Of a DNA stretch of 64,000 nucleotides, positions 9,891 to 26,207 are shown piece after piece. Location of the stretch: the NCBI RefSeq assembly GCF_004765815.2, contig NZ_SBIS02000008.1, forward strand, positions 62,001-126,000, written 5' to 3'. Source of the stretch: Halorussus salinus. GTDB lineage: Archaea > Halobacteriota > Halobacteria > Halobacteriales > Haladaptataceae. Every line of letters starts with the position of its first letter. Position 1 is the stretch's first letter. Both the position numbers and the translations under genes were made by a program. The notes under the pieces were generated by a model. The model did no database searches. It had not been told where the DNA came from and saw nothing but the letters and a program-made list of their open reading frames with translations.

Positions 9891-12725
9891 CTACTCGCTG
9901 ACGAACTGACCGAGACCCACCCGGCCGACCAGCGCCAGCGCGACGAACGCGACGAACCCCACGGCTATCCACGACCACGACGCGAGTTCGAGCGCGACGA
10001 CGCCGAACGCCTCCCGAACCGGCGTGTAGAGGATGGCCAACTGGAGCGCCAGCGTGAGACCGATTGCGCCCAACAGCCACCGGTTCGAGAGTGCCGAGAG
10101 GTCGTAGCGCGACCGGATGAGCTGAATCCGGACCAACTCGATGACGACGAGGAAGGTAAACAGCGTCGTCTGGGCGACGACGAGCGTCGCCAGTCCCAGC
10201 CCGTAGAAGAACACGCCGAGACCGGTTACGGTCATCAGGACGCCGATGAACCCCACCGAGGCCAGCACCCTGTCGTTGACGACGCGCTCGCTGGCCTCGC
10301 GGGGCGGGCGCTCCATTACGTCCTCGGCCTTGGGGTCCGCGCCGAGCGCCAAGGCCGGGAGACCGTCGGTGACGAGATTTATCCACAGGAGCATGACTGG
10401 CGTCAGGACCACCGCCTCCGCGCTCCCGGCGAACGTCTCGGGGAACAGCGCGGCCCCCACGAGCGCGCCGACGAACACCACCAACACCTCGCCCGCGTTC
10501 GCCGACAGGAGATAGTTGACGAACTTCCGCACGTTGTCGAACACGCCGCGGCCCTCCGCCACGGCGTCCCGAATCGTCCGGAAGTTGTCGTCGCGCAACA
10601 CCACGTCGGCGGCGGTCCGGGCCACGTCGGTCCCGCGCTGGCCCATCGCCACGCCCACGTCGGCGCGCTTCAGCGCGGGCGCGTCGTTCACGCCGTCGCC
10701 GGTCATCGCCACGGTGTGGTCGTTGTCCTGTAACGCGCCCAGTATCCGGACCTTGTGGCTCGGCGAGACCCGCGCGAACACCTCGACCTCCTCGACGCGC
10801 TCGGCCAACTCGCCTTCGGACAACGCCTCGACCTCCGGGCCAGCCATCGCGCCCGCCGGGTCGAAGCCCAACTCCGCGCCGATGGCCTTCGCCGTCTCGA
10901 CGTTGTCGCCGGTCGCCATCACGGTCCGAATCCCCGCGCCGCGACAGTCCGCGACCGCCTCCGCTACCTCGGGTCTCGGCGGGTCCATCAGTCCCTGCAA
11001 CCCGAGAAACGTCAGTCCCTCCTCTAACTCGTCGTCCGGCGCGTCGAGGTCCACGCCCGTCTTCCGGGCGAACCCCAGCACGCGGAGCGCGTCGCTGGCC
11101 AACCGGGCGTTCGTCGCCAGAATCTCGTCGCGGCGGTCGTCGGTCAGCGCCACGACTTCGCCGTCCGCCAGCACCGAGTCGCATCGGGACAGAATCTCCT
11201 CCGGTGCGCCCTTGACGTGGGCCGTCGGGTCGGCGTTCGACGCGGAGACGCTCCCACTATCGTTTCCGTTTACGCCTACGTTTACGCTTTCATTTACGTT
11301 TCTGTCAACGCTTTCGTTTTCGCTCATCCCCGAATCGGCGGTATCGTTCTCTCCTTGGCCACCCGCTTCGCGGCCGTCGCCGCGGGTCACGACCGTCATA
11401 CGCTTTCGCTCCGAGGAGAACGGAATCTCGCGCACCCGGTCGCCGTCGAAGGCGACGCCAGCCTCGTCGGCCGCCCGGCGGAGCGCCACCTCGGTCGGGT
11501 CTCCTCGGTAGCCCTCCGGCGTGCGCTCGGCGTCGTTGCATATCGCGCCCGTTCGAAGAAGCGCCGCGAGCGCGGGCGGGATTTTGTCGCTCGTCGGTGA
11601 CGCGCCGTCGGTCCGCGCGTCCGCCTCCACCTCCGCGTGCGCTTGTTCGCCGCTCGACAGGACGTACGTCTCGCTCCCCGCGTAGGCCCGCCGGACGGTC
11701 ATCTCGTTTTCGGTCAGCGTCCCGGTCTTGTCAGTGACGATAACGTCCACCGAGCCGAGGCTCTCGACCACCGGCAGTCGCCGGACTAGCGCGTCCCGCC
11801 GGAGGAGTCGCCGGGACCCGAGCGCGAGCGTCAGTGTGACCACGGCGGGCAGTCCCTCGGGTACCGCCGCGACCGCGAGCGTGACCGCGACCAGCAGGAC
11901 TGCGATGGGCGACGATTGGGTGAACACTAACTGGACCACGGCGACGAGCGCGATGACGCCGAGTGTCAACCCCGCGATTCGCCTGCCCAGCGCGTCGACC
12001 TCCTTCTGAAACGGGGTCGGCGGCTCGTCGGTCGCGCCCAACTGCGCGGCGATGGCTCCGACTTGGGTCTCCATCCCGGTCGCCACGGCGATGGCGGTGC
12101 CCCGGCCGTCCACCGCGTGAGTGTTCATGAACACCATGTCGGTCCGGTCGGCAGGTGGTGCGTCCGCGGGGACCTCCTCGGTCGTCTTCTCGACGCTCGC
12201 GCTCTCGCCGGTCAGCGCCGACTCGTCGGCCGCGAGTCGCTGGGTCTCGACGAGTCGCCCGTCGGCCGGAATTACGTCACCCTGCTCGACGACGAACACG
12301 TCGCCGGGAACGACCTCGCGGGCGTCTACGGTCCGCTTCTCACCGTCCCGAACCACCGTCGCGTCCGGCGTCGAGAGCGACCGGAGCGCCCGAATCGACT
12401 TCTCCGTGCGGTAGTCCTGCACGAACCCGAACAGCCCGTTTGCCAGCAGGATAGCCGCGATGAGTCCGGCCTCGGCGTACTCCGGCGTCTGGCCCGGCAG
12501 GAAGCCGACCGCCAGCGACAGCGCCGCCGCGACCACCAGCAGGTAGGTCAGCCAGTTGCGGAACTGGGCGACGAACAGGCCGAGCGCCGACGCGCGCTCG
12601 GCGTCCCGTATCTCGTTGGGGCCCCACTCGTCGTACCGTCGTCTGGCTTCCTCTTCGCTCAGGCCTGCCTCGTCGGCGTCGAGACGCTCGAAGACCTCCT
12701 TCGGGGCTCGGGCGTGCCAGTCCAT
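9891..12725 (-). CDS. P2-type cation-transporting ATPase (probable Ca2+ pump)
   Basis: This 944-residue pump starts at MDWHARAPKEVF. The frame is open further upstream to 12878, but that Lys/Arg-rich extension is translated hexamer repeat. Domains in order: cation-ATPase N-terminus (1-60), actuator with TGES (172-175), M4 with PEGL (Glu290), phosphorylation site DKTGT (Asp332), nucleotide domain with KGAPEE (505-510), hinge TGDGVND (685-691), M5 with Asn743/Glu746 and M6 NLVTDG (783-788). The PEGL Glu with M6 Asn/Asp matches SERCA/PMR1-like calcium or manganese pumps. Residues about 451-500 are a low-complexity insert, of which 467-489 is encoded by a CG-hexamer array. Confidence 0.93.
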   Translation of the reverse strand: MDWHARAPKEVFERLDADEAGLSEEEARRRYDEWGPNEIRDAERASALGLFVAQFRNWLTYLLVVAAALSLAVGFLPGQTPEYAEAGLIAAILLANGLFGFVQDYRTEKSIRALRSLSTPDATVVRDGEKRTVDAREVVPGDVFVVEQGDVIPADGRLVETQRLAADESALTGESASVEKTTEEVPADAPPADRTDMVFMNTHAVDGRGTAIAVATGMETQVGAIAAQLGATDEPPTPFQKEVDALGRRIAGLTLGVIALVAVVQLVFTQSSPIAVLLVAVTLAVAAVPEGLPAVVTLTLALGSRRLLRRDALVRRLPVVESLGSVDVIVTDKTGTLTENEMTVRRAYAGSETYVLSSGEQAHAEVEADARTDGASPTSDKIPPALAALLRTGAICNDAERTPEGYRGDPTEVALRRAADEAGVAFDGDRVREIPFSSERKRMTVVTRGDGREAGGQGENDTADSGMSENESVDRNVNESVNVGVNGNDSGSVSASNADPTAHVKGAPEEILSRCDSVLADGEVVALTDDRRDEILATNARLASDALRVLGFARKTGVDLDAPDDELEEGLTFLGLQGLMDPPRPEVAEAVADCRGAGIRTVMATGDNVETAKAIGAELGFDPAGAMAGPEVEALSEGELAERVEEVEVFARVSPSHKVRILGALQDNDHTVAMTGDGVNDAPALKRADVGVAMGQRGTDVARTAADVVLRDDNFRTIRDAVAEGRGVFDNVRKFVNYLLSANAGEVLVVFVGALVGAALFPETFAGSAEAVVLTPVMLLWINLVTDGLPALALGADPKAEDVMERPPREASERVVNDRVLASVGFIGVLMTVTGLGVFFYGLGLATLVVAQTTLFTFLVVIELVRIQLIRSRYDLSALSNRWLLGAIGLTLALQLAILYTPVREAFGVVALELASWSWIAVGFVAFVALALVGRVGLGQFVSE
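11261..11326. repeat. (CGNNNN)n hexamer array A, inside the P-type ATPase gene
   Basis: CG starts at 11261, 11267, 11273, 11279, 11285, 11297, 11309, 11315 and 11321; the two missing positions (11291, 11303) read CA and TG, as single transitions would give. Intervening tetramers are TTTC, TTTA, CCTA, CTTT, TCAA, TTTT. The array is in frame with the gene on the minus strand (two codons per unit) and encodes residues 467-489 of the nucleotide-domain loop, rich in Asn, Val, Glu and Ser. Confidence 0.9.
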
Positions 12726-12828
12726 CGAACGGTTCTCTCCTCGAACGGTGTCCAGCGTCGAAAGTGTACGGGACGGCTCGTCGGGTCCCGGCACGTCGAA
12801 TTTCACCTCGGAAAACTGGCGTCTTCGG

Positions 12829-12866
12829 CGTTTGCGCTTTCGTTTACGCAATCGAAAACGTAAACG
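12829..12866. repeat. (CGNNNN)n hexamer array B, upstream of the P-type ATPase gene
   Basis: CG starts at 12829, 12835, 12841, 12847, 12853, 12859 and 12865, seven without a break. Spacers are TTTG, CTTT, TTTA, CAAT, AAAA, TAAA. It lies about 105 bp before the chosen ATPase start, in a region that would be leader or promoter. Confidence 0.9.
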
Positions 12867-12929
12867 CTTTTTTAGCAAGCTTAGTCGCGTTCGTTCCGAC
12901 TACGAGAGTGGCGTCGCTCGTCGGTAGCG

Positions 12930-12969
12930 TCGAAAGAAAACACCTCGTGTACCCCTACCCGAGGTGTTT
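12930..12969 (-). terminator. Hairpin plus T-rich tract, downstream of the DUF192 lipoprotein gene
   Basis: AAACACCTCG (12938-12947) and CGAGGTGTTT (12960-12969) form a perfect 10-bp stem with a 12-nt loop. Read on the minus strand the stem runs into TTTTCTTTCG. It sits 57 bp after the stop of the minus-strand gene at 13026, so an intrinsic terminator is the simplest reading. The stem could also act as a protein-binding inverted repeat. Confidence 0.5.
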
Positions 12970-13025
12970 CGTTCCTCACACGGATTCTATAAATGCTTTG
13001 TGTTCGGGACCGCCGGACGAAACGC

Positions 13026-13649
13026 TCACCAGTTCAGCCACGACAGCCAGCCGGTCGATTCGGCCTCCGGGGGCTGGCCCTCGAACACCAACTCCGTTCC
13101 GGGACCGACGCCGGTCCGGTTGGCGAACCCGCGCGGGAGTTCCACGACGTACTTGGCCTCTCCGTCGCTCGGGTAACTCTCTAACTCGCTCGTGGAGGCG
13201 TTGGGCTGTGTCCGGGCGTGCTGGACGTTCAACACGGTGTTGTCGGGACCCACGAATATCATGTCGAGCGGAACGAGGGTGTTTTTCATCCAGAACGACA
13301 CCTGCTGGGCGTTCTCGTAGACGAACACCATCCCGGTCCGGTTGGCTAACTCCTCGCGGTGCATCAGCCCCGACTGGCGCTCGCCCGGCTCGTCGGCGAC
13401 CATCAGTGAGACGGTGACGTTCTCGCCGTCCTCCACGACGAACGTCGCGTTGACGGTCCGCTCTACGTCGGTCGTGGTCGGCGGCGGGTCGGTCGTCGTC
13501 CGGTCCGCCGTCTCAGGATTTGCTGTCGGCTCTACGGTCGTCGCCGTCTCCTGTCCGTTGGTGTCGTCTGTCGCCGTGCCGCCGAACCCTCCGGCGCATC
13601 CCCCGAGGAGTACCATGACCCCCACCAGAACCGCGGCGTACCTTCTCAT
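13026..13649 (-). CDS. DUF192 domain lipoprotein
   Basis: This 207-residue protein has a lipoprotein signal (MRRYAAVLVGVMVLLGGCAG, lipobox Cys18) and a Thr/Asp-rich linker to about residue 65. The DUF192 domain follows: SLMVADEPGERQSGLMHREEL, GMVFVYENAQQVSFWMKNT, PLDMIFVGPD and FANRTGVGPGTELVFE. DUF192 proteins are small beta-rich secreted proteins found in bacteria and archaea; their biochemical role is unknown. This one should be anchored outside the membrane by lipid. It follows the DUF456 gene in the same direction after an 81-bp gap, so the two may be cotranscribed. Confidence 0.9.
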   Translation of the reverse strand: MRRYAAVLVGVMVLLGGCAGGFGGTATDDTNGQETATTVEPTANPETADRTTTDPPPTTTDVERTVNATFVVEDGENVTVSLMVADEPGERQSGLMHREELANRTGMVFVYENAQQVSFWMKNTLVPLDMIFVGPDNTVLNVQHARTQPNASTSELESYPSDGEAKYVVELPRGFANRTGVGPGTELVFEGQPPEAESTGWLSWLNW

Positions 13650-13730
13650 GTCACGCTACTACTTCCCGGTCGGACAAAAAGGTTGAGCGCGACGGGCGGT
13701 GCGAGCGGGGACGCGAGACCGACCGGCGCG

Positions 13731-14207
13731 TCAGAGCGCGACCAGCAGGAACCCGCCCAGTAGCGAGAGTGTGACGACCAACTGGACCACCGCGGACCCG
13801 AGGACCCCGACCGCGGCGAACACCGCCGCCCGTGCCCCCTGTCCGGCGTTCCGCGTCCGGTAGTACTCCGCGGCGAAGACGGTGACCGCGATTCCGACGA
13901 CGAGCGCGGCGGGACCCGCGACGAAGAACAGCGGGATGCTCACTACCGTCGCCAAGAGCGTCGTCTTCTTCGAGGCTCCTCCGGCGCTCGCGGCGAGCGC
14001 GCCCCCAAGCTGGTCGGCGAGGATGGCGGCGAGACCGACCAGCGTGAACGCGACCAGTACGAGGAGGCCCGGCGTCGCGAACCCGCTCGACCACCAGTAG
14101 AGGTAGACGCCGACGAGCGAGAGGCCAGCACCGGGGACAGCGGGAACGACGCTCCCGACGACGCCAGCGAGCAGTAAAACCACGGCGGCGACGAAGAATA
14201 GGTCCAT
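13731..14207 (-). CDS. DUF456 family membrane protein
   Basis: This 158-residue protein has four hydrophobic segments. The family pattern is clear: LLLAGVVGSVVPAVPGAGLSLVGVYLYWW at the N-terminus, then AAILADQLGGALAASAGGASKKTTLLATVVSIP and a C-terminal helix. The start at 14207 (MDLFFVAAVV) is chosen because the frame continues upstream only into basic residues encoded by array C. DUF456 proteins resemble small-molecule or ion channel-like glycine-zipper proteins, but the function is not established. It is divergent from the parA operon. Confidence 0.85.
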   Translation of the reverse strand: MDLFFVAAVVLLLAGVVGSVVPAVPGAGLSLVGVYLYWWSSGFATPGLLVLVAFTLVGLAAILADQLGGALAASAGGASKKTTLLATVVSIPLFFVAGPAALVVGIAVTVFAAEYYRTRNAGQGARAAVFAAVGVLGSAVVQLVVTLSLLGGFLLVAL

Positions 14208-14286
14208 GCGCGTCCGTAGACGCTTCGCGAGGTTAGCGGTTGTGGCTCGGTACGCGAGCGACCGGGACGCGAACCACGCGCATTTT

Positions 14287-14324
14287 CGTTTGCGTAAACG
14301 CATTCGAAAACGCAACCGTAAATG
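14287..14324. repeat. (CGNNNN)n hexamer array C, between the DUF456 gene and parA
   Basis: CG starts at 14287, 14293, 14299, 14305, 14311 and 14317, then TG at 14323. Spacers are TTTG, TAAA, CATT, AAAA, CAAC, TAAA. It lies about 30 bp upstream of the parA TATA box and is in the same 6-bp register as array D (78 bp, 13 units, apart). Confidence 0.88.
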
Positions 14325-14353
14325 TTCTTTCTCCAACACTCGTCTGACGAAGG

Positions 14354-14360
14354 ATTAAAT
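14354..14360 (+). promoter_or_regulatory. TATA-like element of the parA operon
   Basis: TTAAATA lies 31-37 bp before the ATG at 14391, predicting transcription to start close to the start codon. Confidence 0.65.
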
Positions 14361-14364
14361 ACGT

Positions 14365-14388
14365 CGTTTGCGTTTGCGCAAACGCAAA
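14365..14388. promoter_or_regulatory. Array D / perfect 22-bp palindrome in the parA promoter (putative operator)
   Basis: CG starts at 14365, 14371, 14377 and 14383. Bases 14367-14388 are a perfect palindrome of half-site TTTGCGTTTGC. It fills the space between TATA box and start codon, so a bound protein would block transcription. It is built from the same hexamers as the arrays. An autoregulatory operator is inferred. Confidence 0.7.
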
Positions 14389-14390
14389 TC

Positions 14391-15281
14391 ATGTCTCGGT
14401 CCATCCGCGCCTGCACCTTCCTCGACAAGGGAGGGACGGGCAAGACCACGACGGCCGCCCACCTCGGCGTCGCGCTCGCCGAACGCGGCCACGACGTGTT
14501 GCTCATCGACCTCGCGGGCAAACAGGGCGACCTCGTCAAGCACTTCGGGCGATGGGAGACCGTCGAGCGCCAGATAGACGAGGACGACGACTGGCCGAAC
14601 ATTTCGACGGTCTTTCAGGACCAGTGGGACGCCATCGCCGAGAAGTTGGGCGACGCCGCAGTCGAGGACCTCATCTTGGAGACCGACGAGGGCGTCGATC
14701 TGATTCCGGCCCATCCGGGCCTCGACAGCCTCGACGCCGAACTCGGCAACATCGACGACGCCCACGACCGCTACTCCCGGCTCGACTCGTTCTTGAACGA
14801 GTACGTCGAACCGCTGGGTTACGACGCCATCCTCATCGACCTGCCGGGCCTGACGAACAACGTCAGCTACAACGGCTTGTGGGCCGCGCGGAACGTCATC
14901 GCGCCGGTCGAGATGGGACCGTTCGAGTCCGAACAGGCCGAAGCGTTGCGCGCGGACCTCGACAAGATCGGCGCGAACTTCGACGTGGACGTGAAACTGG
15001 CGATGGTCCTCCCGAACAAGGTGGACACGCGAACGACACTCGCCGAGGAGTACCTCGACGCCTTCGAGGAGGCCTACCCCGAGGCGTTCGTCTCCTCGCA
15101 CGTCCCCGTCAGTCAGGACATCCGGAACGCCGCCGAGTCGGGCCGGACCGCGTTCGCGCTCGAAGAGCCGTCCACGACCGCCCAACGCGCACGCGAGTCG
15201 TTCCTCGACAACGCCGAGACGCTGGTCGAGCGACTCCGGGAGCGCGAGCGCGCCGCCCCGGCGGGAGGTGAGGTGGCGTGA
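14391..15281 (+). CDS. parA: ParA/Soj family ATPase
   Basis: This 296-residue protein has the deviant Walker A box of ParA/MinD proteins (FLDKGGTGKTTTAAHL, signature Lys13 and Lys18), switch-like DLAGKQGDLVKHFG (Walker A') and Walker B ILIDLPGLTNN. ParA proteins bind DNA non-specifically with ATP and move or position DNA or other cargo with the help of a partner that binds a specific site. The start is fixed by TATA spacing; an open upstream extension to 14322 is repeat-derived. The stop overlaps the start of the next gene (GTGA), so the two are translationally coupled. CG-hexamer arrays flank the operon on both sides. Confidence 0.93.
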   Translation: MSRSIRACTFLDKGGTGKTTTAAHLGVALAERGHDVLLIDLAGKQGDLVKHFGRWETVERQIDEDDDWPNISTVFQDQWDAIAEKLGDAAVEDLILETDEGVDLIPAHPGLDSLDAELGNIDDAHDRYSRLDSFLNEYVEPLGYDAILIDLPGLTNNVSYNGLWAARNVIAPVEMGPFESEQAEALRADLDKIGANFDVDVKLAMVLPNKVDTRTTLAEEYLDAFEEAYPEAFVSSHVPVSQDIRNAAESGRTAFALEEPSTTAQRARESFLDNAETLVERLRERERAAPAGGEVA

Positions 15282-15670
15282 GCGACCCCGACCTCGAAGA
15301 ACTCCGCCAGCAGACTCAGCGCACCGACCGCCTCGCGGAACCCGACGCCCGCGAGGACGGGACCGAAGACTTGGTGGAGGATTTGGTCGAAGCCCTCGGC
15401 GCTATCGACTCGGGCGAACAGGCCAAGACCTTCGCCGCCAGAGACGAGTCGGTGACGGCGCTTCTCTCGACGCTGGACGACCGCCAGCACGACCTCGAAG
15501 CCGTCGGCACCGCGCTACAGGGCGCGCTCGGCCGCGAAATCGAAACCGACTCGCTGGACCGGAGCGAAATCGTCCGCCTCGCAGTCCGGCTCGGCCTCCG
15601 AGAGGCCGCGCCGGAGTACCTCGACCTCCTCGCCGACGCGTCCGGCGAGTACGCTCGCAGAAACGTCTGA
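15278..15670 (+). CDS. Small partner protein encoded with ParA (putative centromere-binding protein)
   Basis: This 130-residue acidic protein starts at a GTG overlapping the parA stop by 4 nt. The N-terminal two thirds is helical and charged (DLEELRQQTQRTDRLAEPD; EDLVEDLVEALGAIDSGEQ). The C-terminus IETDSLDRSEIVRLAVRLGL (88-107) looks like the strand and first helix of a ribbon-helix-helix fold, although I cannot confirm this by eye. ParB itself (HTH, CTP-binding) is not present. In many plasmid and archaeal systems the ParA gene is followed by a small site-specific DNA-binding protein, and this is the natural candidate here. Confidence 0.75.
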   Translation: MSDPDLEELRQQTQRTDRLAEPDAREDGTEDLVEDLVEALGAIDSGEQAKTFAARDESVTALLSTLDDRQHDLEAVGTALQGALGREIETDSLDRSEIVRLAVRLGLREAAPEYLDLLADASGEYARRNV

Positions 15671-15692
15671 CGGGGCTTTCTTCTACTGTTCA

Positions 15693-15778
15693 CGACAACG
15701 TTTTCGCAATCGTTTACGCTTCTGTTTTCGGCTACGTTTTCGTTTTCGAAATCGGAAACGTCTCCGAGTCCGAAAACG
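15693..15778. repeat. (CGNNNN)n hexamer array E, directly downstream of the parA operon
   Basis: Fifteen consecutive 6-bp positions from 15693 to 15777: fourteen are CG and one (15723) is TG. Spacers include TTTT, CAAT, TTTA, CTTC, GCTA, AAAT, GAAA, TCTC, AGTC, AAAA. It begins 22 bp after the stop of the partner gene and holds no gene. Confidence 0.93.
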
Positions 15779-15914
15779 ACGGAGGGGATTCGTTCGTGAC
15801 GACGCTATCGACGCCGGTTTTCGGTCTCAGTCGCGCGACGCGAGTGACTGCCCACCGCTCTCGCGGACACGTCTCTCGACTATCGGTGCGGACGGGTCCC
15901 TTACTTGACAGAAA

Positions 15915-15958
15915 CGTTTGCGTAAACGATAGCGAAAACGCAATCGTAAACGAACTCG
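15915..15958. repeat. (CGNNNN)n hexamer array F
   Basis: CG starts at 15915, 15921, 15927, 15933, 15939, 15945, 15951 and 15957. Spacers are TTTG, TAAA, ATAG, AAAA, CAAT, TAAA, AACT. It lies 85-125 bp upstream of the gene at 16042. Confidence 0.9.
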
Positions 15959-16041
15959 GTCGCCGAGGTCGCGTTCCGAACGTGGCTCGCTCCTGACACG
16001 CGGCGTGGTGATTGATAACGCACGAGGGCGTAGCGCGGGTC

Positions 16042-16431
16042 GTGACCGACGACGCGCCGACGTTCGACATCCCCCGGCGGCCCGAACGGGTCTACCCCCG
16101 CGAGGGCGGCGTCGAATACGAGGGCGGGACGGTGTTCCGACTCTCGCCCGACGCCGAGGTCTCCGAGGAGACGTTGGCGTCGCTCGTGGAGGCGGTTCTG
16201 GAGGGCGAGCGATACACCTACGGCGACTGGTTCGAACTCCCTGCCCCGGTGTATCTGGTCCACGACGAGCGCCACTCGACGGCGTTCCGGGTCGTGGTTC
16301 GCTACGGGGACGTGGAGTTTCACGTCCTGCCCAACACCGCCGCCGAGGCCCTGCGAGGGTTGTACTCGCGGCTTCGGGAGTCGAGCGACTTCGATTGGCG
16401 CGTCGATTGCGAGACGACGCGGCCGGAGTGA
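16042..16431 (+). CDS. Haloarchaeal protein of unknown function
   Basis: This 129-residue protein starts at GTG (VTDDAPTFDIPRRPERVYP). The frame is open 10 codons upstream to a TTG at 16012, but ATTGATAA lies there at TATA distance from the GTG. The body alternates strands and helices (EGGTVFRLSPDAEVSEETL; GDWFELPAPVYLVHDERH; FRVVVRYGDVEFHVLPNT). No catalytic pattern or metal site is evident. It precedes the winged-helix regulator at 16503, which has its own promoter. Confidence 0.65.
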   Translation: MTDDAPTFDIPRRPERVYPREGGVEYEGGTVFRLSPDAEVSEETLASLVEAVLEGERYTYGDWFELPAPVYLVHDERHSTAFRVVVRYGDVEFHVLPNTAAEALRGLYSRLRESSDFDWRVDCETTRPE

Positions 16432-16471
16432 GCGTCCGGATAGAGCGAGCGAAGGAGCGGAGCGCGGTACC

Positions 16472-16479
16472 TTTTTATC
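16472..16479 (+). promoter_or_regulatory. TATA-like element of the gene at 16503
   Basis: TTTTTATC lies 24-31 bp before the ATG, fitting a leaderless transcript. Confidence 0.55.
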
Positions 16480-16502
16480 GCCACCGCGATACCCCCTCAG
16501 TA

Positions 16503-17168
16503 ATGACGCTTCCCACGACCGACGACGCGACCTTGCGGACGCGCGATACCGAGGAGCAGATGTGGGACCTCGCCGAGGAGGACCCCGCGGCGGCGCGCCG
16601 GGCCTACCCGAGCGGGTGGCTCTGGCTCACCGGCGAGGAGGCCGTTCGGTCGCTGTTGGCGGCGCTGTTGGACGCCGACACCGACGCTCGCTACGGCGTC
16701 GAGGACCTCGCCTCGCGCTCCGGACTCGGCGAATCGGCGGTCGAGACGGCCATCGAGGCGCTCATCTCGGTCGGCGTGTTGGTCGCCGACGAGGGCGCGT
16801 ATCGCATCAACGACTGCGCCATCGTCTATCACGCGGCGACGGAGCTATCGGCCGCGGTCGAGGCGACCGGCGCGCCCGACGACGAGTCGGGCTTCGAGTA
16901 TCTCGCGCGCCTCGAATCGGTGCGCCTGATGCTCGACGCGCTACTTGACGTGGACCCGGACCAGTCGCTCGAACAGGAGGACATCCACCGGTTGAGCGGC
17001 GTCTCCCGAAAGCGGGTGTGGCACCACGTCGAGAAGTTGGTCGATTTGGGCGTGGTCGAGGAGTCGGGCGACGAGTACGCCGTCGGCGGCGCGACCCCCG
17101 TGGTCCGGTGGATTCAGTCGCTCGACGCGGCGGTCGTCGGTGCGACGCTCGCTCCGTCCCACCCCTGA
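16503..17168 (+). CDS. Double winged-helix regulator-like protein
   Basis: This 221-residue protein has two helix-turn-helix regions. The first is about 60-100 (YGVEDLASRSGLGESAVETAIEALISVGVLV) and the second about 150-200 (LEQEDIHRLSGVSRKRVWHHVEKLVDLGVVEE). Each is followed by a wing-like strand, and the N-terminal 50 residues are acidic with a Trp-rich patch (GWLWLTGEEAV). Two HTH domains in one chain suggest binding of a long or pseudo-symmetric site as monomer or dimer. No ligand domain was seen. It lies convergent to the PadR gene; the target is unknown. Confidence 0.75.
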   Translation: MTLPTTDDATLRTRDTEEQMWDLAEEDPAAARRAYPSGWLWLTGEEAVRSLLAALLDADTDARYGVEDLASRSGLGESAVETAIEALISVGVLVADEGAYRINDCAIVYHAATELSAAVEATGAPDDESGFEYLARLESVRLMLDALLDVDPDQSLEQEDIHRLSGVSRKRVWHHVEKLVDLGVVEESGDEYAVGGATPVVRWIQSLDAAVVGATLAPSHP

Positions 17169-17213
17169 GTGCGGTCCCACTTTGCGGTCCCACTTCGCGG
17201 TCCGCTGAGTCGG

Positions 17214-17507
17214 TTACGCGGTCGCTTCTCGGGGCAAATCCACGTATTGGGTCTCCCACTCGCGGCGCGCTTCTATCTCTCGGGTTCCGCGGCGAGTCAG
17301 CGTGTAGTAGTTGGTCCGGCGGTCGCGCTGGCCCTTCTCCACGAAGCCCTTGTCCACGAGCGTATCGAGGTTCGGGTACAGTCGGCCGTGATGAATCTCT
17401 TTCTCGTAGTACGATTCCAGTTCGTCTTTGATAGCGAGGCCGTGCGGTTCGTCGAGGCCCGCGATGACGTACAGCAAGTCCCTTTGGAAGCCTGTCAGGT
17501 CGTACAT
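17214..17507 (-). CDS. PadR family transcription regulator
   Basis: This 97-residue protein is a short PadR-type winged helix: LTGFQRDLLYVIAGLDEPHGLAIKDELESYY, then HHGRLYPNLDTLVDKGFVEKG and the wing RRTNYYTLTRRGTREIEAR. The GRLYPNLDTLV recognition segment is the family hallmark. The C-terminal dimerisation helix is reduced, as in other haloarchaeal short PadR proteins. The start at 17507 is preceded by GGGGAG, a Shine-Dalgarno-like sequence; the open frame beyond it is not protein-like. PadR proteins are usually repressors of efflux or stress genes; no such gene is adjacent. Confidence 0.9.
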   Translation of the reverse strand: MYDLTGFQRDLLYVIAGLDEPHGLAIKDELESYYEKEIHHGRLYPNLDTLVDKGFVEKGQRDRRTNYYTLTRRGTREIEARREWETQYVDLPREATA

Positions 17508-17609
17508 CTTCTCCCCTTTTAGACCGGAATTTCCGTACCGGCAAAAGGATGATGGCCGAATCGAACGACCGGAACTGTCACGGCCGGAAGATAGCAAAAT
17601 CGCCGGACG

Positions 17610-18344
17610 TTATCGGTCCGCGGTCGTTAAGCATTCCATACTCACGGATTCGAGCCACGTCTCCGCGACCGACGAGTCGCCGGTCCGGCTCGCACGAGGA
17701 ATGGCAACGATGCGCATTTCGTCGCCGTCCGACACGCCGTCGGCCAAGTCGTGTTCGAGCAGTAGCGGGACCGCCGTCTCACCGGTAGGGTCCCGGAGGC
17801 GAACCTCTCGGGCGTCCACGTACTCACTAGCGTCTGGCGCGAACGAGAGGTAGCCGACCGAACTGCACCGCGGGCACTTGGCGTGGCTCCGGAACTCGCG
17901 CCCGCGCTGGGCGACGTATCGCGTGACCTCCTCGCACTTGGCACACCGGAACCCTGCGCGAACGACCTTCGGCCGAAGCTGGCCGGTCTCGGCGACGACT
18001 CCTCGGGTGGTGTGGAGTTGGTTCAGGTGTTCCGCCCGGAGGTCTCCGAGCGCGAGTTCGCTCTCGGCGGGGAGGTCGCTGACCCGGAGGTACACGTCCC
18101 GCATCTCGCGGTCCGCGTCGTCGGCCAGAAAGCGCCCGAGCGCGGCCTTCCCCGCCCGGAGCGCCTCGTCGGGGTTCGTCAGGAGCGGCCGGACGAACTG
18201 GTAGTCGTGGCCGAATCGCTCGCAACTCACCGACAGGGCGCGCTCGTCGGGGTACCGCTCCACGAACCGGCGCACCGACTCGCCGCGGTCACGATACACG
18301 TACTCGTACCACTTCTCGGTCAGGTCGCCGCTTCGCGCCGACAT
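17610..18344 (-). CDS. Orphan MCM N-terminal-domain protein (no AAA+ ATPase)
   Basis: This 244-residue protein aligns by eye with the N-terminal region of the archaeal MCM helicase: helical A domain (about 1-95, ending YLRVSDLPAES), then the OB fold (LNQLHTTRGVVAETGQLRPKVVRAGFRC) with a zinc finger of Cys134, Cys137, Cys157 and Cys160 (CAKC...CPRC). The strand segment SEYVDAREVRLRDPTGE and DLADGVSDGDEMRIVAIPRA follow. It stops where the AAA+ motor should begin, with a proper stop codon. In MCM this part forms hexamers and binds DNA. It could be a regulator of MCM loading or an independent ssDNA/dsDNA-binding protein (inference). Confidence 0.85.
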   Translation of the reverse strand: MSARSGDLTEKWYEYVYRDRGESVRRFVERYPDERALSVSCERFGHDYQFVRPLLTNPDEALRAGKAALGRFLADDADREMRDVYLRVSDLPAESELALGDLRAEHLNQLHTTRGVVAETGQLRPKVVRAGFRCAKCEEVTRYVAQRGREFRSHAKCPRCSSVGYLSFAPDASEYVDAREVRLRDPTGETAVPLLLEHDLADGVSDGDEMRIVAIPRASRTGDSSVAETWLESVSMECLTTADR

Positions 18345-18465
18345 GGGGTGGCGTTCTCGCGTTGCGGCCTTTGTTACACGGCTCCTGTCGAGCGATGCGT
18401 CCGGTTAGCGCCGCCCTGTGGTCGCGGCCTCCTCGGGCGATTTCCCCGCATTTCGGTCATATCTC

Positions 18466-18531
18466 CGTTTTCGTTTACGTTTACGAATCCGTTTCGCAAT
18501 CGTTTTCGCAATCGGCTCCGGATTCGTTTCG
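18466..18531. repeat. (CGNNNN)n hexamer array G, upstream of the FAD/Fe-S oxidase gene
   Basis: CG starts at 18466, 18472, 18478, 18484, 18490, then after a one-base slip at 18495, 18501, 18507, 18513, 18519 and 18525, ending with CG at 18530. Spacers are TTTT, TTTA, TTTA, AATC, CAAT, TTTT, CAAT, GCTC, GATT. It lies between the divergent MCM-like and oxidase genes. Confidence 0.9.
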
Positions 18532-18600
18532 GGGGCGTTCCCGGTTCGTCTTCGGCTCGGTCTCCGGACCGGCGAGCGCGAGCGTTCACACTGCACCCGT

Positions 18601-18608
18601 AATTTATG
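18601..18608 (+). promoter_or_regulatory. TATA-like element of the FAD/Fe-S oxidase gene
   Basis: AATTTATG lies 25-32 bp before the ATG at 18633. This argues for that ATG rather than the upstream in-frame ATG at 18606, which overlaps the element. Confidence 0.65.
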
Positions 18609-18632
18609 ACTCTTCACGTGTCATACGGTGTC

Positions 18633-21600
18633 ATGTCTTCCCCTCCCGCGGACGCCCCCGACTTCGAGTCCTACCGGGACTCGCTCGGTATCGAGGTACC
18701 CGACGACCCCGACCACGCCGAACTGGCGGCCGACCTCCGGCGGGCCTGCGAGGGCGCGGTCCGGTTCGACGAGTACAGCCAGATTCTCTACGCCACCGAC
18801 GGGAGCGTCTACGAGGAGCGTCCCGCGGGAGTCGTCTTCCCGACGGACGCCGACGACGTGGCGGCCGCGACCGAAGTCGCGGCCGCCCACGACGCGCCGG
18901 TCCTCCCTCGCGGCGCGGGGTCGTCGCTCGCGGGCCAGTCGGTGGGGTCGGGCTGTGTCGTCCTCGACCTCTCGCGGCATCTGGACGCGATTCTTGAGGT
19001 GGACCCCGACCGGAAGCGCGCGGTCGTCCAGCCCGGCGTCGTGCAGGACGACCTCGACTCCCGGCTGGCCGACGACGGCCTGAAGTTCGCGCCCGACCCG
19101 GCCTCCTCGAACCGAGCGACTGTCGGGGGCGGCATCGGCAACAACTCGACGGGCGCACACTCGGTCCGGTACGGCATCACCGACGCCTACGTCGAGGAGG
19201 TCGAAGCCGTCCTCGCGGACGGAAGTCGGATTCGCGCCCGCGAGGTCGAACTCGACGGGCCGGAGTGGGAGCGAATCGTGGCGAAGGACGACCGCGAGGC
19301 CGCGATTTACCAAACGGTTCGGTCGCTGGTCGAGGAGAACGAAGCCGAAATCGAGGACAAGTACCCGAAACTCAAGCGGTCGGTGTCGGGCTACAACCTC
19401 CACAAGTGTATTTACGTAAACGAAAACGGAAACGAATGCGTAAACGTTGCCAAGCTGTTCGTCGGCGCGGAGGGGACGCTGGGCACCGTCACGGAGGCGA
19501 CGCTCTCGCTGGTCTCGCAACCCGACGAGACCGCGCTGGCGCTGTACTGCTTCTCGGACCTGCTGTCGGCGATGGAGGCCGTGCCGGTCGCGCTCGACTA
19601 CGACCCGAGCGCGGTCGAGTTGATGGACGACGAGGTGTTCCGACTGGCCCGCGAGTCCACCGAGTACGCGCAGTACGCCGAGCCGATTCCCGACGACGCC
19701 GCGGCCGCGCTGATGCTGGAGTTCGATTCGGAGGTGAAAGTCGATTTGGAGGAGGCCGTCGCGGAGACGAATGCCGAGTTCGTCCACGCGGGCGCGGCCT
19801 TCGACGTGTTGGAGGCTTACGACGAGGAGGCCCAGTCGAAGCTCTGGAAGCTCCGGAAGGCGGCGATTCCCCTGCTGATGAGCATGGCGGGCGACCCCAA
19901 ACCCTATCCCTTCATCGAGGACGCGTCGGTTCCGCCCGACGAGTTGGCCGAGTACGTGCAGGGTTTCGAGGGAGTTCTGGAGGCCCACGACACCTCGGCG
20001 GCGTACTTCGCCCACGCCGGGAGCGGGACCCTCCACGTCCGCCCCGTGCTGAACCTCAAGGAATCGGCGGGCGTCGAGAAGATGCAGTCCATCGCCGAGG
20101 ACGTGACCTCGCTCGTGTTGGACCACCGCGGGTCGTTCTCGGGCGAACACGGCGACGGCCTCGCACGGACGCAGTTCAACCCCAAATTGTACGGTCCGGA
20201 GCTGTGGGCCGCGTTCAAGCAACTCAAGACCTCGTTCGACCCAGACTGGCGGATGAACCCCGGCAAGGTCGTCTTCCGGGACTCGCCCGACGACGTGGGA
20301 CCGACCGGTCCCGGCGCGGCCGCCGAGCGCGGCGTCGGCGCGGACATGCGCGAGAATTTGCGCTACGGCCCGGCCTACTCGTCGCTGGAACCCGCCACCG
20401 AGCAGGACTTCTCGGCGGAGGGCGGCTTCTCGCACCTCGTGGAACTGTGCAACGGCTGTGGTACCTGCCGCCAGACCGACTCGGAGGTGATGTGTCCGTC
20501 CTACCGCGGGATGGACGACGAGATGGCCACGACCCGCGGCCGGGCGAACATGCTCCGAGCCGCGATTTCGGGCGAACTTCCGCCCGACGAAATCTACAGC
20601 GAGCGATTCCAGAAGGAGGTGCTGGACCTCTGTCTGGGGTGTAAGGGCTGTCAGAGCGACTGCCCGACCGGAGTGGACCTCGCCAAACTCAAGGCCGAGG
20701 TCAAGCACCGCTACCACGAGGAGGAAGGCGCTGGCCCCCGCGAACGACTCTTCGCCGAGGTTGACCGCCTCGCTCGCGTCGGCTCTGCGCTCGCGCCGGT
20801 CTCAAACTGGCTGGCCGACCTCCCCGGCGCGGGCCTGCTCGCCGAGAAGACGCTCGGCATCGCCCGCGAACGCGACTTCCCCGAGTTCGCGGGCCAGTCG
20901 TTCGCGTCGTGGTTCGCGGCCCGCGGCGGCCCACGGATTCCGGCCTCGGAGGCCGCGGACCGGGTTCTGCTCGTGCCCGACACCTACACGAACTACGTCT
21001 ACCCCGCGACGGGCCGGGCCGCGGTGCAGGTCCTCGAAGCCGCCGGGGTCCGCGTCGAGGTGCCCGACGCCGACCCGAGCGGTCGCCCGGCGTACTCGGA
21101 GGGCTTCCTCGACGTGGCCCGAGAGCGCGCCGCGGCCAACGTCGCTCGGTTCGCGCCCCGCGTCCGCGAGGGCTGGTCGGTCGTCTACCCCGAACCCTCC
21201 GACGCCGCGATGGTGCAGGACGAGTACCGGGACCTCCTGCCCGACTCGTCGGCCGCCGACCTCCTCGCCGAGAACGCTTACGGCGTCTGCGAGTACCTCG
21301 ACGTGACGCGCCGGGACGACGCCATCGACTTCGACGCGCCCGACGTTCGGCTGGCGTACCACGGCCACTGCAACCAGAAGGCGCTGGGTACTGCTGGTCA
21401 CGCCGCGGGGCTCCTCTCGCGGGCGGGCTACGACGTGGCCGCGCTCGACTCGGGCTGTTGTGGCATGGCCGGAAGCTTCGGCTACCACGCCGAACACTAC
21501 GACCTCTCCCAGTCCATCGGCGACATCCTGCGCGACCGGATTTCCGAAGCGGACGCCGACGAGGTGGTCGCGCCCGGCGCGTCCTGTCGGTCGCAACTGG

Positions 21601-21659
21601 ACACCGAGCGCCCGACCCACCCCGTCGAGGAGTTGGCCGCGGCGCTTCCACGCCGATAG
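18633..21659 (+). CDS. FAD-binding and Fe-S oxidoreductase (D-lactate/glycolate dehydrogenase type)
   Basis: This 1008-residue membrane-associated type enzyme fuses the GlcD and GlcF/GlpC modules. An FAD-binding 4 domain (about 50-290) carries LPRGAGSSLAGQSVGSG and GIGNNSTGAHSVRYG. The FAD-oxidase C-domain follows to about 550, with EHGDGLARTQFNP. Two ferredoxin motifs come next, CNGCGTCRQTDSEVMCPS (about 605) and CLGCKGCQSDCPT (about 667). The C-terminal Cys-rich half has HGHCNQK and SGCCGMAGSFGYH. The likely reaction is oxidation of D-lactate or another 2-hydroxyacid, passing electrons to quinone. Residues 261-272, just before GAEGTLG, are encoded by a CG-hexamer array. Confidence 0.92.
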   Translation: MSSPPADAPDFESYRDSLGIEVPDDPDHAELAADLRRACEGAVRFDEYSQILYATDGSVYEERPAGVVFPTDADDVAAATEVAAAHDAPVLPRGAGSSLAGQSVGSGCVVLDLSRHLDAILEVDPDRKRAVVQPGVVQDDLDSRLADDGLKFAPDPASSNRATVGGGIGNNSTGAHSVRYGITDAYVEEVEAVLADGSRIRAREVELDGPEWERIVAKDDREAAIYQTVRSLVEENEAEIEDKYPKLKRSVSGYNLHKCIYVNENGNECVNVAKLFVGAEGTLGTVTEATLSLVSQPDETALALYCFSDLLSAMEAVPVALDYDPSAVELMDDEVFRLARESTEYAQYAEPIPDDAAAALMLEFDSEVKVDLEEAVAETNAEFVHAGAAFDVLEAYDEEAQSKLWKLRKAAIPLLMSMAGDPKPYPFIEDASVPPDELAEYVQGFEGVLEAHDTSAAYFAHAGSGTLHVRPVLNLKESAGVEKMQSIAEDVTSLVLDHRGSFSGEHGDGLARTQFNPKLYGPELWAAFKQLKTSFDPDWRMNPGKVVFRDSPDDVGPTGPGAAAERGVGADMRENLRYGPAYSSLEPATEQDFSAEGGFSHLVELCNGCGTCRQTDSEVMCPSYRGMDDEMATTRGRANMLRAAISGELPPDEIYSERFQKEVLDLCLGCKGCQSDCPTGVDLAKLKAEVKHRYHEEEGAGPRERLFAEVDRLARVGSALAPVSNWLADLPGAGLLAEKTLGIARERDFPEFAGQSFASWFAARGGPRIPASEAADRVLLVPDTYTNYVYPATGRAAVQVLEAAGVRVEVPDADPSGRPAYSEGFLDVARERAAANVARFAPRVREGWSVVYPEPSDAAMVQDEYRDLLPDSSAADLLAENAYGVCEYLDVTRRDDAIDFDAPDVRLAYHGHCNQKALGTAGHAAGLLSRAGYDVAALDSGCCGMAGSFGYHAEHYDLSQSIGDILRDRISEADADEVVAPGASCRSQLDTERPTHPVEELAAALPRR
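19415..19446. repeat. (CGNNNN)n hexamer array H, inside the FAD/Fe-S oxidase gene
   Basis: CG starts at 19415, 19421, 19427, 19433, 19439 and 19445 with spacers TAAA, AAAA, GAAA, AATG, TAAA. It is read in frame as YVNENGNECVNV between the conserved SGYNLHK and KLFVGAEGTLG of the FAD domain, a loop that varies among relatives. Confidence 0.85.
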
Positions 21660-21798
21660 CGAGCCACGCGGTCGGACTCCGGCTCCCCCCTACAAATTTC
21701 ATCTATATATCTCAGAAAACAAACGGTCCAGTTATCTCATTTGATAACGACCGAATAGATTTAAATCTCCAGCACGTGTCAGTTCCTACAGTAACGAA

Positions 21799-22077
21799 AT
21801 GCAACCGATGGAAGTCGCCTACGTCGTACTCAGTGCCGTCCTCGTCGTCGCGGGTCTCACGCTGGTCGCGAAGTCGGCCCGCGCGTATCTAGAGACCGAT
21901 AGTCGGTCGATGCTCCTGTTGACCATCGGGTTCTCGCTGGTCGTCGCCGCGGCGGTGGCGACGACCTACAGCGCGTTCGTGACCGACTTCGAGCGGAGTC
22001 GCGTGTTGCTCACGGTCAACTACGCGGTGACGACGCTCGGGTACGTCTTCATCGTGACGAGCGTTCGGGCGCAGTAA
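21799..22077 (+). CDS. Small three-helix membrane protein (DUF7521-like)
   Basis: This 92-residue protein has three hydrophobic segments, at about 5-25 (VAYVVLSAVLVVAGLTLVAK), 40-60 (MLLLTIGFSLVVAAAVATTY) and 72-88. The loop carries the motif ARAYLETDSRSM. It resembles the small haloarchaeal membrane proteins I know as DUF7521, often found near HTH regulators; the assignment is from memory. The preceding AT-rich stretch contains ATTTAAAT about 40 bp before the ATG as a promoter candidate. Confidence 0.65.
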   Translation: MQPMEVAYVVLSAVLVVAGLTLVAKSARAYLETDSRSMLLLTIGFSLVVAAAVATTYSAFVTDFERSRVLLTVNYAVTTLGYVFIVTSVRAQ

Positions 22078-22175
22078 CTGGGTTTTCTGTCTCTGATTTC
22101 CACTCGCCTTTCGCCTCCCGACACCGCCCTGCCGACTCGGAAACCTACTTGCCGGGCGACGCCCACCGTGTTCGT

Positions 22176-22946
22176 ATGTCAGATAGCTCCACGCTCAGGC
22201 GACGACTCCGCGACGGCGACTCGGTGGTCGGCCACTGGCTCTCGGTCGCCCACCCCGCGGTCGCGGAGGTCTGCGCCCGCGAGGCCGACTTCGCGGTCGT
22301 GGACACCGAACACGCGCCGACCGACCTCGCCGACGTGGCGAACGTCGCTCGCGCGGTCGAATCCGCGGGCGAGGCGGCCCTCCTCGCTCGCGTCGCGGAC
22401 AACGACCCCGTGCGAATCAAGCGCGTGTTGGACACCGGCGTTTCCGGTGTCTTGGTCCCGATGGTCGAGTCCGCCGAGGAGGCCCGCCGCGCGGTCGAAG
22501 CGACGCGCTACCCGCCGGAGGGCGTCCGGGGCATCGCGGGGTCGCGGGCCAACGACTACGGCCGGAACCTCGCCGCGCAGGTCCGCGGCGACGAGGGGAC
22601 GCCCGCCGTGGTCCTCCAAATCGAGACCGACGAGGCCGTCGCCGAGGCCCGCGACATCGCCGCGGTCGAGGGCGTGGACGCCCTGCTGGTCGGCCCGGCG
22701 GACCTCTCGGGGTCGCTGGGCGTCTTCGGCGAGTACGAGAGCGACCGCTTCCGCGAGACCGTCGAGTCGGTCCTCGCGCGCGCCCACGACGCCGACACGC
22801 CGGTCGGTACGTTGGCGACCGACGAGAGCGAGATTCGACTGTGGGCCGACTACGGCTACGACTACCAAATCGTCGGCACCGACGCGGGCTATCTCGCCGA
22901 CGGCGCGGAGCGCGCACGACTGACCTACGAGGACGCGATGCGATGA
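22176..22946 (+). CDS. HpcH/HpaI aldolase family protein
   Basis: This 256-residue TIM-barrel lyase of the 2-keto-3-deoxy-sugar-acid aldolase family starts at MSDSSTLRRRLRDGDSVVGHW. Family motifs are DFAVVDTEHAPTD (substrate and base region), LARVADNDPVRIKRVLDTG, GVLVPMVESAEEARRAV, the metal-ligand Glu in VVLQIETDEAV and VGPADLSGSLG with the second metal Asp. Such enzymes perform divalent-metal-dependent aldol cleavage of 4-hydroxy-2-oxo acids in the cytoplasm; the exact substrate cannot be read from the sequence. Its stop overlaps the next start (ATGA), so it is cotranslated with the threonine-synthase-like enzyme. Confidence 0.9.
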   Translation: MSDSSTLRRRLRDGDSVVGHWLSVAHPAVAEVCAREADFAVVDTEHAPTDLADVANVARAVESAGEAALLARVADNDPVRIKRVLDTGVSGVLVPMVESAEEARRAVEATRYPPEGVRGIAGSRANDYGRNLAAQVRGDEGTPAVVLQIETDEAVAEARDIAAVEGVDALLVGPADLSGSLGVFGEYESDRFRETVESVLARAHDADTPVGTLATDESEIRLWADYGYDYQIVGTDAGYLADGAERARLTYEDAMR

Positions 22947-24289
22947 CGGACTCGCCCGAGACCGCCCTCGATTCGCTCGACCTGACCTGCTACCGGTGCG
23001 GCGCGACCGCCTCCTTCCCCGACCGCAAGCGGTGCGACTGCGGCGAACCGCTCTGGTTCGACACCGACGGAGCCGCCGCCGAGTTCGCGTGGCCCGACGC
23101 CGAGACGACCGCGGGAGCGAAATCGGCCGTCCGGCGCTACGCCGACCTCCTGCCCTTCGACTCCGAATCCGGCGGAGCCATCGAGGGCGTGAGCGCCGCC
23201 GCGGGCGCGACGCCGCTGGTCCGCGCGTCGGGACTCGACAACGACGCGGGATGCCGACTCTGGCTCAAAGACGAGAGCGAGAACCCGACGGGGAGTTTCA
23301 AGGACCGGGGGAGCGCGGTGGGCGTGGCGTGGGCCGCCGAGGCGGGCCGCGAGTGGGTCGGTACCGTCTCGCACGGAAACATGGCGATGAGCGTCGCGGC
23401 GACCGCCGCGGGAGCGAGTTCCGGAGACCCCGACGCCGACTCGCCGCGCGCGCTCGTTCTCGTGCCCGACGACATCTCCGGCGAACGACTCGCGGCCATC
23501 GCGCAGTACGACCCCGCGCTCGTCCGGGTCGCGGGCGACTACGGCCGTCTCTACCACGAGACGCTGGCCGCCGACGCGCCCGTGGAGTTCGTCAACTCCG
23601 ACACTCCTCTGCGCGTGGCCGGGCAGAAGACCACGGCGCTGGAAATCTGCGAGGCGTTCGCTCGCGGGGCGTCCGCCCGCGAAATGCGCGGTCGGCGGGA
23701 CCGCGCGCCGGACGACTCCTCCGCGTCCGAGGTCCCCTCAGTGCCGGACGCCATCGTCCTCCCCGTCTCCAGCGGCGGCCACGCCAGCGCGACGTGGAAG
23801 GCTCTGCGGGAGTTGCGGGCCGCGGGTCTCCTCGCCGAGGAGGCCCTCCCGAGACTCTACTTCGTGCAGGCGGCGGCCTGCGACCCCATCGCGGCGGCGT
23901 TCCGCGACGAGCGCGAGTCGGTGACGCGAGCGACCGAGACCGGCGAGACGGTCGCCTACTCCATCGCCAACGCCGACCCGCCGAGCGGGACGCGGGCGCT
24001 CGCGGCGGCCCGCGCAACCGGCGGCGCGGTCCTCTCGGTGCCCGACGACGAGATTCTGGACGCGAAAGCCACCCTCGCTCGAAACGCGGGCTTCTGCGTC
24101 GAACCGGCCTCGGCGACCGCGCTGGCCGGGATTCGACGACTCTCCGACGCGGGCGAACTCGCGGCCGACGACGCGGTGGTCGCGGTGCTGACCGGCACGG
24201 GGTTCCGGGAGTTGGACGCCGCCAGTGCGGACCCGGAGACGGTTGCACTCGCCGACCTGCCTGACCGACTGGCGGCGCTCACTCGGTAG
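22943..24289 (+). CDS. Threonine synthase-like PLP enzyme
   Basis: This 448-residue protein starts with a zinc ribbon (Cys16, Cys19, Cys31, Cys33: CYRCGATASFPDRKRCDCGE) followed by a fold-type II PLP enzyme. The PLP lysine is Lys120 in ENPTGSFKDRGSAV, the phosphate or cofactor loop is VSSGGHASATWKAL, and the C-terminal cofactor region is VAVLTGTGFRE. Threonine synthase converts O-phosphohomoserine to threonine. Haloarchaea usually carry several paralogues, so this may be a side-branch enzyme. Coupling to the aldolase is unusual for a threonine pathway and suggests a role in hydroxy-amino-acid metabolism (inference). A polar insert at about 245-270 (RGRRDRAPDDSSAS) is not conserved in bacteria. 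Confidence 0.85.
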   Translation: MTDSPETALDSLDLTCYRCGATASFPDRKRCDCGEPLWFDTDGAAAEFAWPDAETTAGAKSAVRRYADLLPFDSESGGAIEGVSAAAGATPLVRASGLDNDAGCRLWLKDESENPTGSFKDRGSAVGVAWAAEAGREWVGTVSHGNMAMSVAATAAGASSGDPDADSPRALVLVPDDISGERLAAIAQYDPALVRVAGDYGRLYHETLAADAPVEFVNSDTPLRVAGQKTTALEICEAFARGASAREMRGRRDRAPDDSSASEVPSVPDAIVLPVSSGGHASATWKALRELRAAGLLAEEALPRLYFVQAAACDPIAAAFRDERESVTRATETGETVAYSIANADPPSGTRALAAARATGGAVLSVPDDEILDAKATLARNAGFCVEPASATALAGIRRLSDAGELAADDAVVAVLTGTGFRELDAASADPETVALADLPDRLAALTR

Positions 24290-24335
24290 CGTCGCGTGGT
24301 GGCGCTCACCGGGCGACGCCGCGTAGCGCCGCGGC

Positions 24336-24575: not shown

Positions 24576-24600
24576 GCCGTCGGGTAGGGAGCCGAGACGC

Positions 24601-25947: not shown

Positions 25948-26175
25948 GTTCGCGTCTCAATTCGGTGGGTCTCGGGGAAAGTGTTTGGCCGACGGTGCGT
26001 CGCGCTCGGAGGCGCGCCCGCGGCCGCCGGTCGGATAGCGAGCGGACTGAATCGCCGGTCCACCGATTTCGGCCACCTGACTGAGATAACTGTATTCGCT
26101 CTTATGTAGAAACGACACCAAAGGGTGACGTGAACTGGCCGAACGAGTTCTCTCTGAGGGGACCCTGATTCCTAT

Positions 26176-26183
26176 GTATAAAG
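26176..26183 (+). promoter_or_regulatory. TATA-like element of the GIDE-like gene
   Basis: GTATAAAG lies 25-32 bp before ATG 26208, which supports that start over the in-frame GTG at 26196. Confidence 0.6.
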
Positions 26184-26207
26184 TACATCCAACCGGTGCA
26201 GACGTAT

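Follow-up and report, generated by a model that had tools for sequence, protein, structure and literature searches.

A ParA ATPase, a small putative adaptor and replicon-specific hexamer arrays: a candidate type-Ib-like partition system of Halorussus plasmids and its haloarchaeal relatives

The window, by which we mean the whole stretch of 64,000 nucleotides of Halorussus DNA that was analysed, contains a gene pair surrounded by nine CG-phased hexamer arrays with an A/T-rich middle, a short candidate operator included (Table 1). The upstream gene, parA, encodes a protein with the deviant Walker A motif KGGTGKTT and a P-loop beginning near residue 12, without an N-terminal DNA-binding extension or HTH, and thus of the short ParA type. 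Its identification as ParA in an earlier note on this DNA was borne out by matches to AAA_31 (E=7.8e-19) and CbiA (1.7e-16) in Pfam, to the ParA-like partition protein phrog_164 in PHROG (6e-38) and to Soj/ParA chains in the PDB. Its start had to be moved, the ORF caller's 14322 being an upstream ATG. The second gene overlaps parA by 4 bp (GTGA), in agreement with the translational coupling that had been claimed for the two. Its product, here called the partner, has one clear copy in its own genome. It matched no family in Pfam and NCBIfam, PDB sequence and profile searches found no homologue, and there was no match in the phage records searched. A ParB-CTPase fold was likewise not detected by Pfam or NCBIfam in this protein of 130 aa.

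Table 1. Coordinates of the gene pair and the hexamer arrays in the window.
Feature	Position	Strand	Description
parA	14391-15281	+	296-aa ParA/Soj-type P-loop ATPase
partner gene	15278-15670	+	GTG start; 130-aa acidic protein
array A	11243-11322		inside P-type cation ATPase CDS (9891-12878, minus strand)
array B	12823-12872		at P-type ATPase gene start
array C	14281-14324		about 1.0 kb upstream of partner start; candidate centromere; position kept in relatives
array D	14365-14389	+	candidate operator; dyad GTTTGCGTTTGCGCAAACGCAAA abutting parA ATG
array E	15687-15778		directly 3' of partner gene; 14 phased CG
array F	15909-15964		phased-CG run
array G	18460-18532		intergenic, about +3.2 kb; offset conserved
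array H	19409-19452		inside FAD-linked oxidase gene (18606-21659); encodes YVNENGNECVNV
array I	29055-29182		20 phased CG

A phased-CG scan recovered the arrays that the earlier note had placed upstream (C and D) and downstream (E and F) of the pair. Array E is the longest of those adjoining the operon, a TATA-like AAGGATTAAAT stands upstream of the array D dyad, and the genes on either side of array I encode a methyltransferase (28283-29044) and an HTTM-domain protein (29230-30777). The longer arrays have 5-20 phased CG each, and their units are heterogeneous (CGTTTG, CGCAAA, CGTAAA and others), with only the CG and the WW kept. In a period scan of the window, nine runs were found at period 6 and four at its multiple 12, compared with 0-1 runs at periods 4, 5 and 7-11 and none at 7; runs at period 3 are attributable to codons. 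At a threshold that 11 clusters pass in a 520-kb stretch of the replicon, Markov-1 sequences of the same length gave none. The intragenic arrays A and H are translated in frame as peptide insertions rich in Asn, Val, Glu and Ser, and centromere sites within coding sequences are apparently tolerated by the host genes. Between arrays F and G, the minus strand encodes a 244-aa protein that has the MCM OB domain only (17610-18344; Pfam 5.9e-14).

The arrays are restricted to a single replicon. Of the 11 contigs that make up the 4.75-Mb genome, the window belongs to C5 (523,896 bp), and when the plus strand of the whole genome was searched with a strict pattern (CGNWWN x5 + CG), 13 of 13 sites fell on C5, 12 of them within 12829-29176 of the window and one at C5:408274, while the reversed pattern, used as a control, gave 0. 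Allowing up to two mismatches raised the number to 54 sites and, among the matches listed, all were on C5 except three weak two-mismatch sites on C1. The earlier note had limited the sites to 14 kb, which proved too narrow, as the same replicon has further sites at a distance of 200-330 kb. Four other Halorussus genomes (G012, G013, G017 and G020) gave the same picture, with 44 of 44 strict sites on the partner's contig. The complete Halorussus genomes have the pair on a plasmid of 303-558 kb, such as the circular plasmid unnamed1 of H. aquaticus (434,135 bp). The replicon that carries the pair is a secondary replicon or plasmid, rather than the main chromosome.

The earlier note would have been refuted by genomes that have close relatives of the two genes but no arrays. 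None turned up in Halorussus, where 14 of 14 loci with both genes, their partners 73-99% identical, have arrays. The arrays of these 14 species lie at about -2.4, -1.0, +0.4 to +0.8, +3.2 and +4.2 kb from the partner start; most of the other loci have one at -2.0 to -2.7 kb, comparable to array B, and in most species there are further arrays some +10 to +18 kb away. When the alignment was read by eye, the bases within the arrays varied between species and the CG and WW phasing persisted. The dyad before the parA ATG was present in 14 of 14 loci with one base altered in one species, and such near-invariance is expected of an operator. Array H or its peptide is kept in most relatives that have the FAD-linked oxidase gene. 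A search for related loci with the single partner protein returned six loci, all of them Halorussus. Elsewhere in the genus, G016 has a 9-CG array (L104, G016:C2:242001-262000, 10371-10420) on a 532-kb replicon; no partner was detected in this genome, and the array has no clear parA close by, possibly after a recent loss or replacement of the system.

The chromosomes of haloarchaea that have no partner do contain perfect repeats of hexamers such as CGATTC and CGTTTC, and the arrays might in principle be neutral hexanucleotide microsatellites that stand near parA by chance. We rejected this explanation, to which we give next to no credence, because the arrays are heterogeneous and replicon-confined, and because their offsets are held in 14 species while the bases change. 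The best-supported reading is the one that the earlier note had proposed on the basis of a ParA, a small partner and flanking repeats, namely partition; for the nucleoid-organising role that it had named as well, we found no direct support.

The sequence pattern of the partner resembles that of ribbon-helix-helix (RHH) proteins, with a strand and a helix followed by a DRSExxRLAxR segment like helix B, here DRSEIVRLAVRLG. Pfam RHH_1 was matched weakly by 7 of 38 family members (best E 0.013), and in hhalign comparisons with RHH_1 proteins from the same genome the putative helix B was the only part to align, with probabilities of 21-55% and single-comparison E values of 1e-4 to 1e-3. In AF2 models of the partner the helices are confident (pLDDT about 90), and residues 50-56 are unpaired, so that the single chain forms no ribbon, as would be expected if one chain of an intertwined dimer were modelled alone. 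A Foldseek search of the PDB with two of these models gave nothing significant. The C-terminal domain is probably a dimeric RHH. The earlier note had pointed to residues 88-115, which look like helix B; we reject these as the main recognition element and prefer residues 50-56 (K-T-x-A-x-R-D), before the domain's first helix, as the best candidate for the DNA-contacting segment. The predicted DNA-reading strand reads K50-T-F-A-A-R-D56 in the window. At the N-terminus, residues 1-30 have a pLDDT of 52-56, as for a flexible tail, and contain an Arg18 that is invariant among the 27 homologues compared.

A short ParA, an adaptor with an RHH domain and a flexible tail bearing an ATPase-activating Arg, and short repeats are the components of type Ib partition systems (PMC5016525). 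We consider it highly likely that the locus encodes a partition system resembling type Ib. In such a system the partner would bind replicon-specific arrays serving as centromere and operator and would recruit ParA. Partner dimers would align side by side along the CGNWWN arrays, with the strand residues K50, T51, A53 and R55 reading the hexamers. The bound arrays near the operon, together with some up to 14 kb away, would make up the centromere, and binding to the conserved short array at the parA start would allow the partner to repress its own operon. The flexible tail with Arg18 may touch nucleoid-bound ParA-ATP and stimulate its ATPase, and the copies of the replicon would then travel along a ParA gradient. 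Relatives on other plasmids, with other strand residues and matching cores, would avoid cross-binding between co-resident replicons.

Such relatives are widespread. A search with alignment A1, in which 11 candidates were scored per genome so that the count is a lower bound, found them in at least 81 of 391 sampled Halobacteria genomes and 32 of 86 genera. They occur on named plasmids, including PL47 of Haloquadratum walsbyi, pHME505 of Haloferax mediterranei, NC_006392 of Haloarcula marismortui, those of Halobacterium salinarum and others, where they are annotated as 'hypothetical protein', usually beside a 'ParA family protein'. A ParA relative lies directly upstream of the partner in 80 of 81 family loci, and in most loci a motif-agnostic scan for self-similarity at lags of 6 and 12 gave a signal immediately after the partner gene or just ahead of parA. 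The array cores of these loci differ from those of Halorussus. The CG hexamer site of the earlier note holds for Halorussus but is one among at least four array types in the wider family. Across the class, the partner is present in 31 of 66 genomes with CG-pattern arrays versus 81 of 391 overall (P about 1e-7 by Fisher's test). The calculation makes no correction for kinship among the loci, and common hexamer repeats weaken the signal; we regard this co-occurrence as supporting evidence only and base no claim of significance on the P value. On plasmid unnamed1 of Halococcus dombrowskii (L182, 2111-4190), a gene with a ParB N-terminal domain follows the parA-partner pair, in what is possibly a three-gene operon version. 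Dispersed, heterogeneous CG(GTAT/CTAT/ATAC) arrays were seen in G123 (contigs C37, C38, C51 and C71), where no partner was detected, and in G036 (C2:100327-113410), which has a distant partner at C2:101384; these arrays suggest further diverged members of the family.

The positions of the arrays also invite a reading in which the partner acts chiefly in transcription regulation or nucleoid bridging, the arrays are regulatory and ParA positions something else, since sites are found at gene starts and within genes, up to 14 kb away, and since the sites of Sulfolobus SegB, a protein linked to chromosome organisation, are mostly intragenic (PMC12284271). However, the arrays are strictly on one replicon and clustered about parA, family members stand in an operon with parA on many plasmids, and the strongest array in other genera flanks the operon itself, and we consider this reading improbable in comparison with partition.

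We sorted the family loci by their seven residues 50-56 and defined classes by K50-x-x-[A/S]53-x-[R/W]55. Loci of the A..R class (KT[FIV]A[AV]RD) have CGN(TT/AA)N arrays in 22 of 23 cases (score 17-18 of 18), with the exception of L150 (KTIALRD), which has no ParA upstream. CGN(AT)N arrays go with the S..R class (K[TS]LS[VLA]RD; 8 of 10 loci, score 16-18), the exceptions being L148, with a truncated partner, and L097. In the S..W class (K..S.W), 24 of 25 loci have a CTATAG per 12 bp (score 16-18; exception L156). Cross-class scores were 10-13 for CTATAG outside S..W and 12-15 for CGN(TT/AA)N in S..W loci. The same preferences were seen in hexamer counts: 597 hexamers of A..R loci included TT 213, AA 190, AT 59 and TA 53 times, whereas AT made up 44 of 64 in S..R loci. 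Pairs of CTATAG in S..W loci were spaced at 12, 24 and 36 bp in 160, 98 and 52 cases, with at most nine at any other spacing, and no such pairs at 12, 24 or 36 bp were present in A..R loci. The triple CTATAG-N6-CTATAG-N6-CTATAG occurs in 5 of 391 genomes, and in four of these it is on the contig of an S..W partner, within about 13 kb. G357, which has a perfect triple of this kind (C26:35189) and no partner detected in the genome, shares its genus label with two genomes that have S..W partners.

Outside these three classes, the strand QSFGAKD of L168 is accompanied by the core CGN(TA)N, and partners with NLT[LIM]R (L151, L152, L154, L155, L157, L159-L165, L167 and L169) have TGTAT/GTATC repeats at 13- and 26-bp spacing. 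CTATAG recurs at 13 bp in L158 and L166 (T53, Y55). A 13-bp unit may accompany Thr at position 53. For a hold-out we used 15 plasmid loci outside the rule-forming set, seven of which have K50 and a classifiable strand. The predicted array was present in five of the five with K50 and a ParA (L184, L185, L187, L189 and L190), which include close relatives of training loci and are not fully independent. The two failures, L181 and L183 (KTVSVW), have no good arrays, and a ParA is not annotated beside their partners. Strands with R50 or Q50 (L182 and L192) depart from the simple rule, and residue 50 therefore seems to matter too; L126/L139 and L102/L103 likewise depart from it.

As a description and a prediction rule, the association between strand and core is strong. 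It is weak as a phylogenetically controlled test because the classes are clade-structured and few contrasts are available. In a tree built without the strand columns the classes were largely clades, with at least six changes among five classes, few of them well supported, and tests on independent pairs offered 1-3 contrasts, too few for significance. Strand and array inherited together by shared descent could also explain the association. The proposal that residues 50-55 are a decodable specificity element in which changes at A/S53 and R/W55 switch the core, giving each replicon a private centromere and a predictable, re-programmable incompatibility, seems to us evenly balanced between true and false.

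The same association bears on the question of whether the arrays might be iterons of a replication origin, or else Orc1/Cdc6 sites, with the parA-partner pair a mere neighbour. Halorussus replicons with the pair have their own Orc1/Cdc6, and on some Haladaptatus plasmids (G003:C8, G009:C29, G001:C7 and G009:C4) an orc1/cdc6 gene is found at about 1-3 kb from the partner. Against this, the array core tracks the partner's strand residues and ParA adjoins the partner in nearly every family locus, and we hold origin sites to be very unlikely in general. For Halorussus we rejected them because tens of kilobases separate the arrays from the best-scoring orc1.

We compared the partition reading with known systems. 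As in pSM19035 delta/omega and TP228 ParF/ParG, a small ParA without an N-terminal DNA-binding domain is followed by a small downstream adaptor. The N-terminal tail, of low confidence in AF2 and with a conserved Arg, resembles that of type Ib adaptors (PMC5016525), which double as repressors (PMC5016525, PMC9499535). Short degenerate repeats near the operon, promoter included, are a further likeness to type Ib, those of TP228 having AT-rich spacers. In pSM19035, at least four contiguous heptads are required for ParA activation (PMC9499535); unlike omega's contiguous 7-bp unit, the haloarchaeal unit is 6/12 bp, and 13 bp in one class. The haloarchaeal system also differs from pSM19035 and TP228 in being archaeal, in an adaptor without detectable sequence relation and with an extra helix between its putative helices A and B, in arrays on both sides of the operon that spread over about 18 kb and even into genes, and in a core sequence that, within the family, changes with the strand residues. 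The bacterial type Ib system parABC of pB171 has its repeat clusters, parC1 and parC2, on either side of parAB. The haloarchaeal clusters share this arrangement with pB171, in an archaeal rather than a bacterial setting. So far as sequence tells, the haloarchaeal system would work like type Ib; we do not claim full membership because the fold is weakly supported and the repeat unit differs.

The closest archaeal analogue is SegAB of the Sulfolobales, in which the gene of a ParA homologue overlaps that of a small DNA-binding partner, the RHH protein SegB, and the sites lie just upstream of segA and scattered, mostly within genes (PMC12284271, PMC5120986). SegB recognises one 13-bp palindrome, TCTAGA-S-TCTAGA, in chromosomal DNA, whereas the sites in the window are tandem CGNWWN arrays on plasmids. 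No SegB chain appeared among the PDB profile hits of the partner up to E=10, from a library that may hold none, and the 13-bp spacing of the T53 subclass recalls the 13-bp SegB site as a lead only. AspA-ParB-ParA of pNOB8 is likewise an archaeal plasmid partition system with a small non-ParB centromere binder (PMC9178275), but it consists of three proteins, including a ParB-like/CENP-A-like chimaera, compared with two proteins here, and its site is of another kind. The earlier note knew of no described archaeal system with such a site, and our search of open-licence papers also found none, nor any description of the adaptor, its arrays or any haloarchaeal plasmid centromere.

In a review of archaeal segregation, the segregation of halophile chromosomes and megaplasmids and the centromeres of archaeal plasmids were listed as outstanding questions (PMC5120986). 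The locus offers a concrete, genetically testable answer to these for a family whose members occur on the plasmids of numerous haloarchaeal genera, among them those of the model Haloferax mediterranei and of Haloarcula marismortui; in both, the adaptor carries no more informative annotation than 'hypothetical protein'. The association of strand and core predicts array sequence, plasmid compatibility and re-targeting by mutation. If residues 50-55 do specify the core, haloarchaeal multipartite genomes would be kept by a diversified family of ParA/adaptor partition systems, and a core that changes in step with adaptor residues would explain how several plasmids are told apart in one cell.
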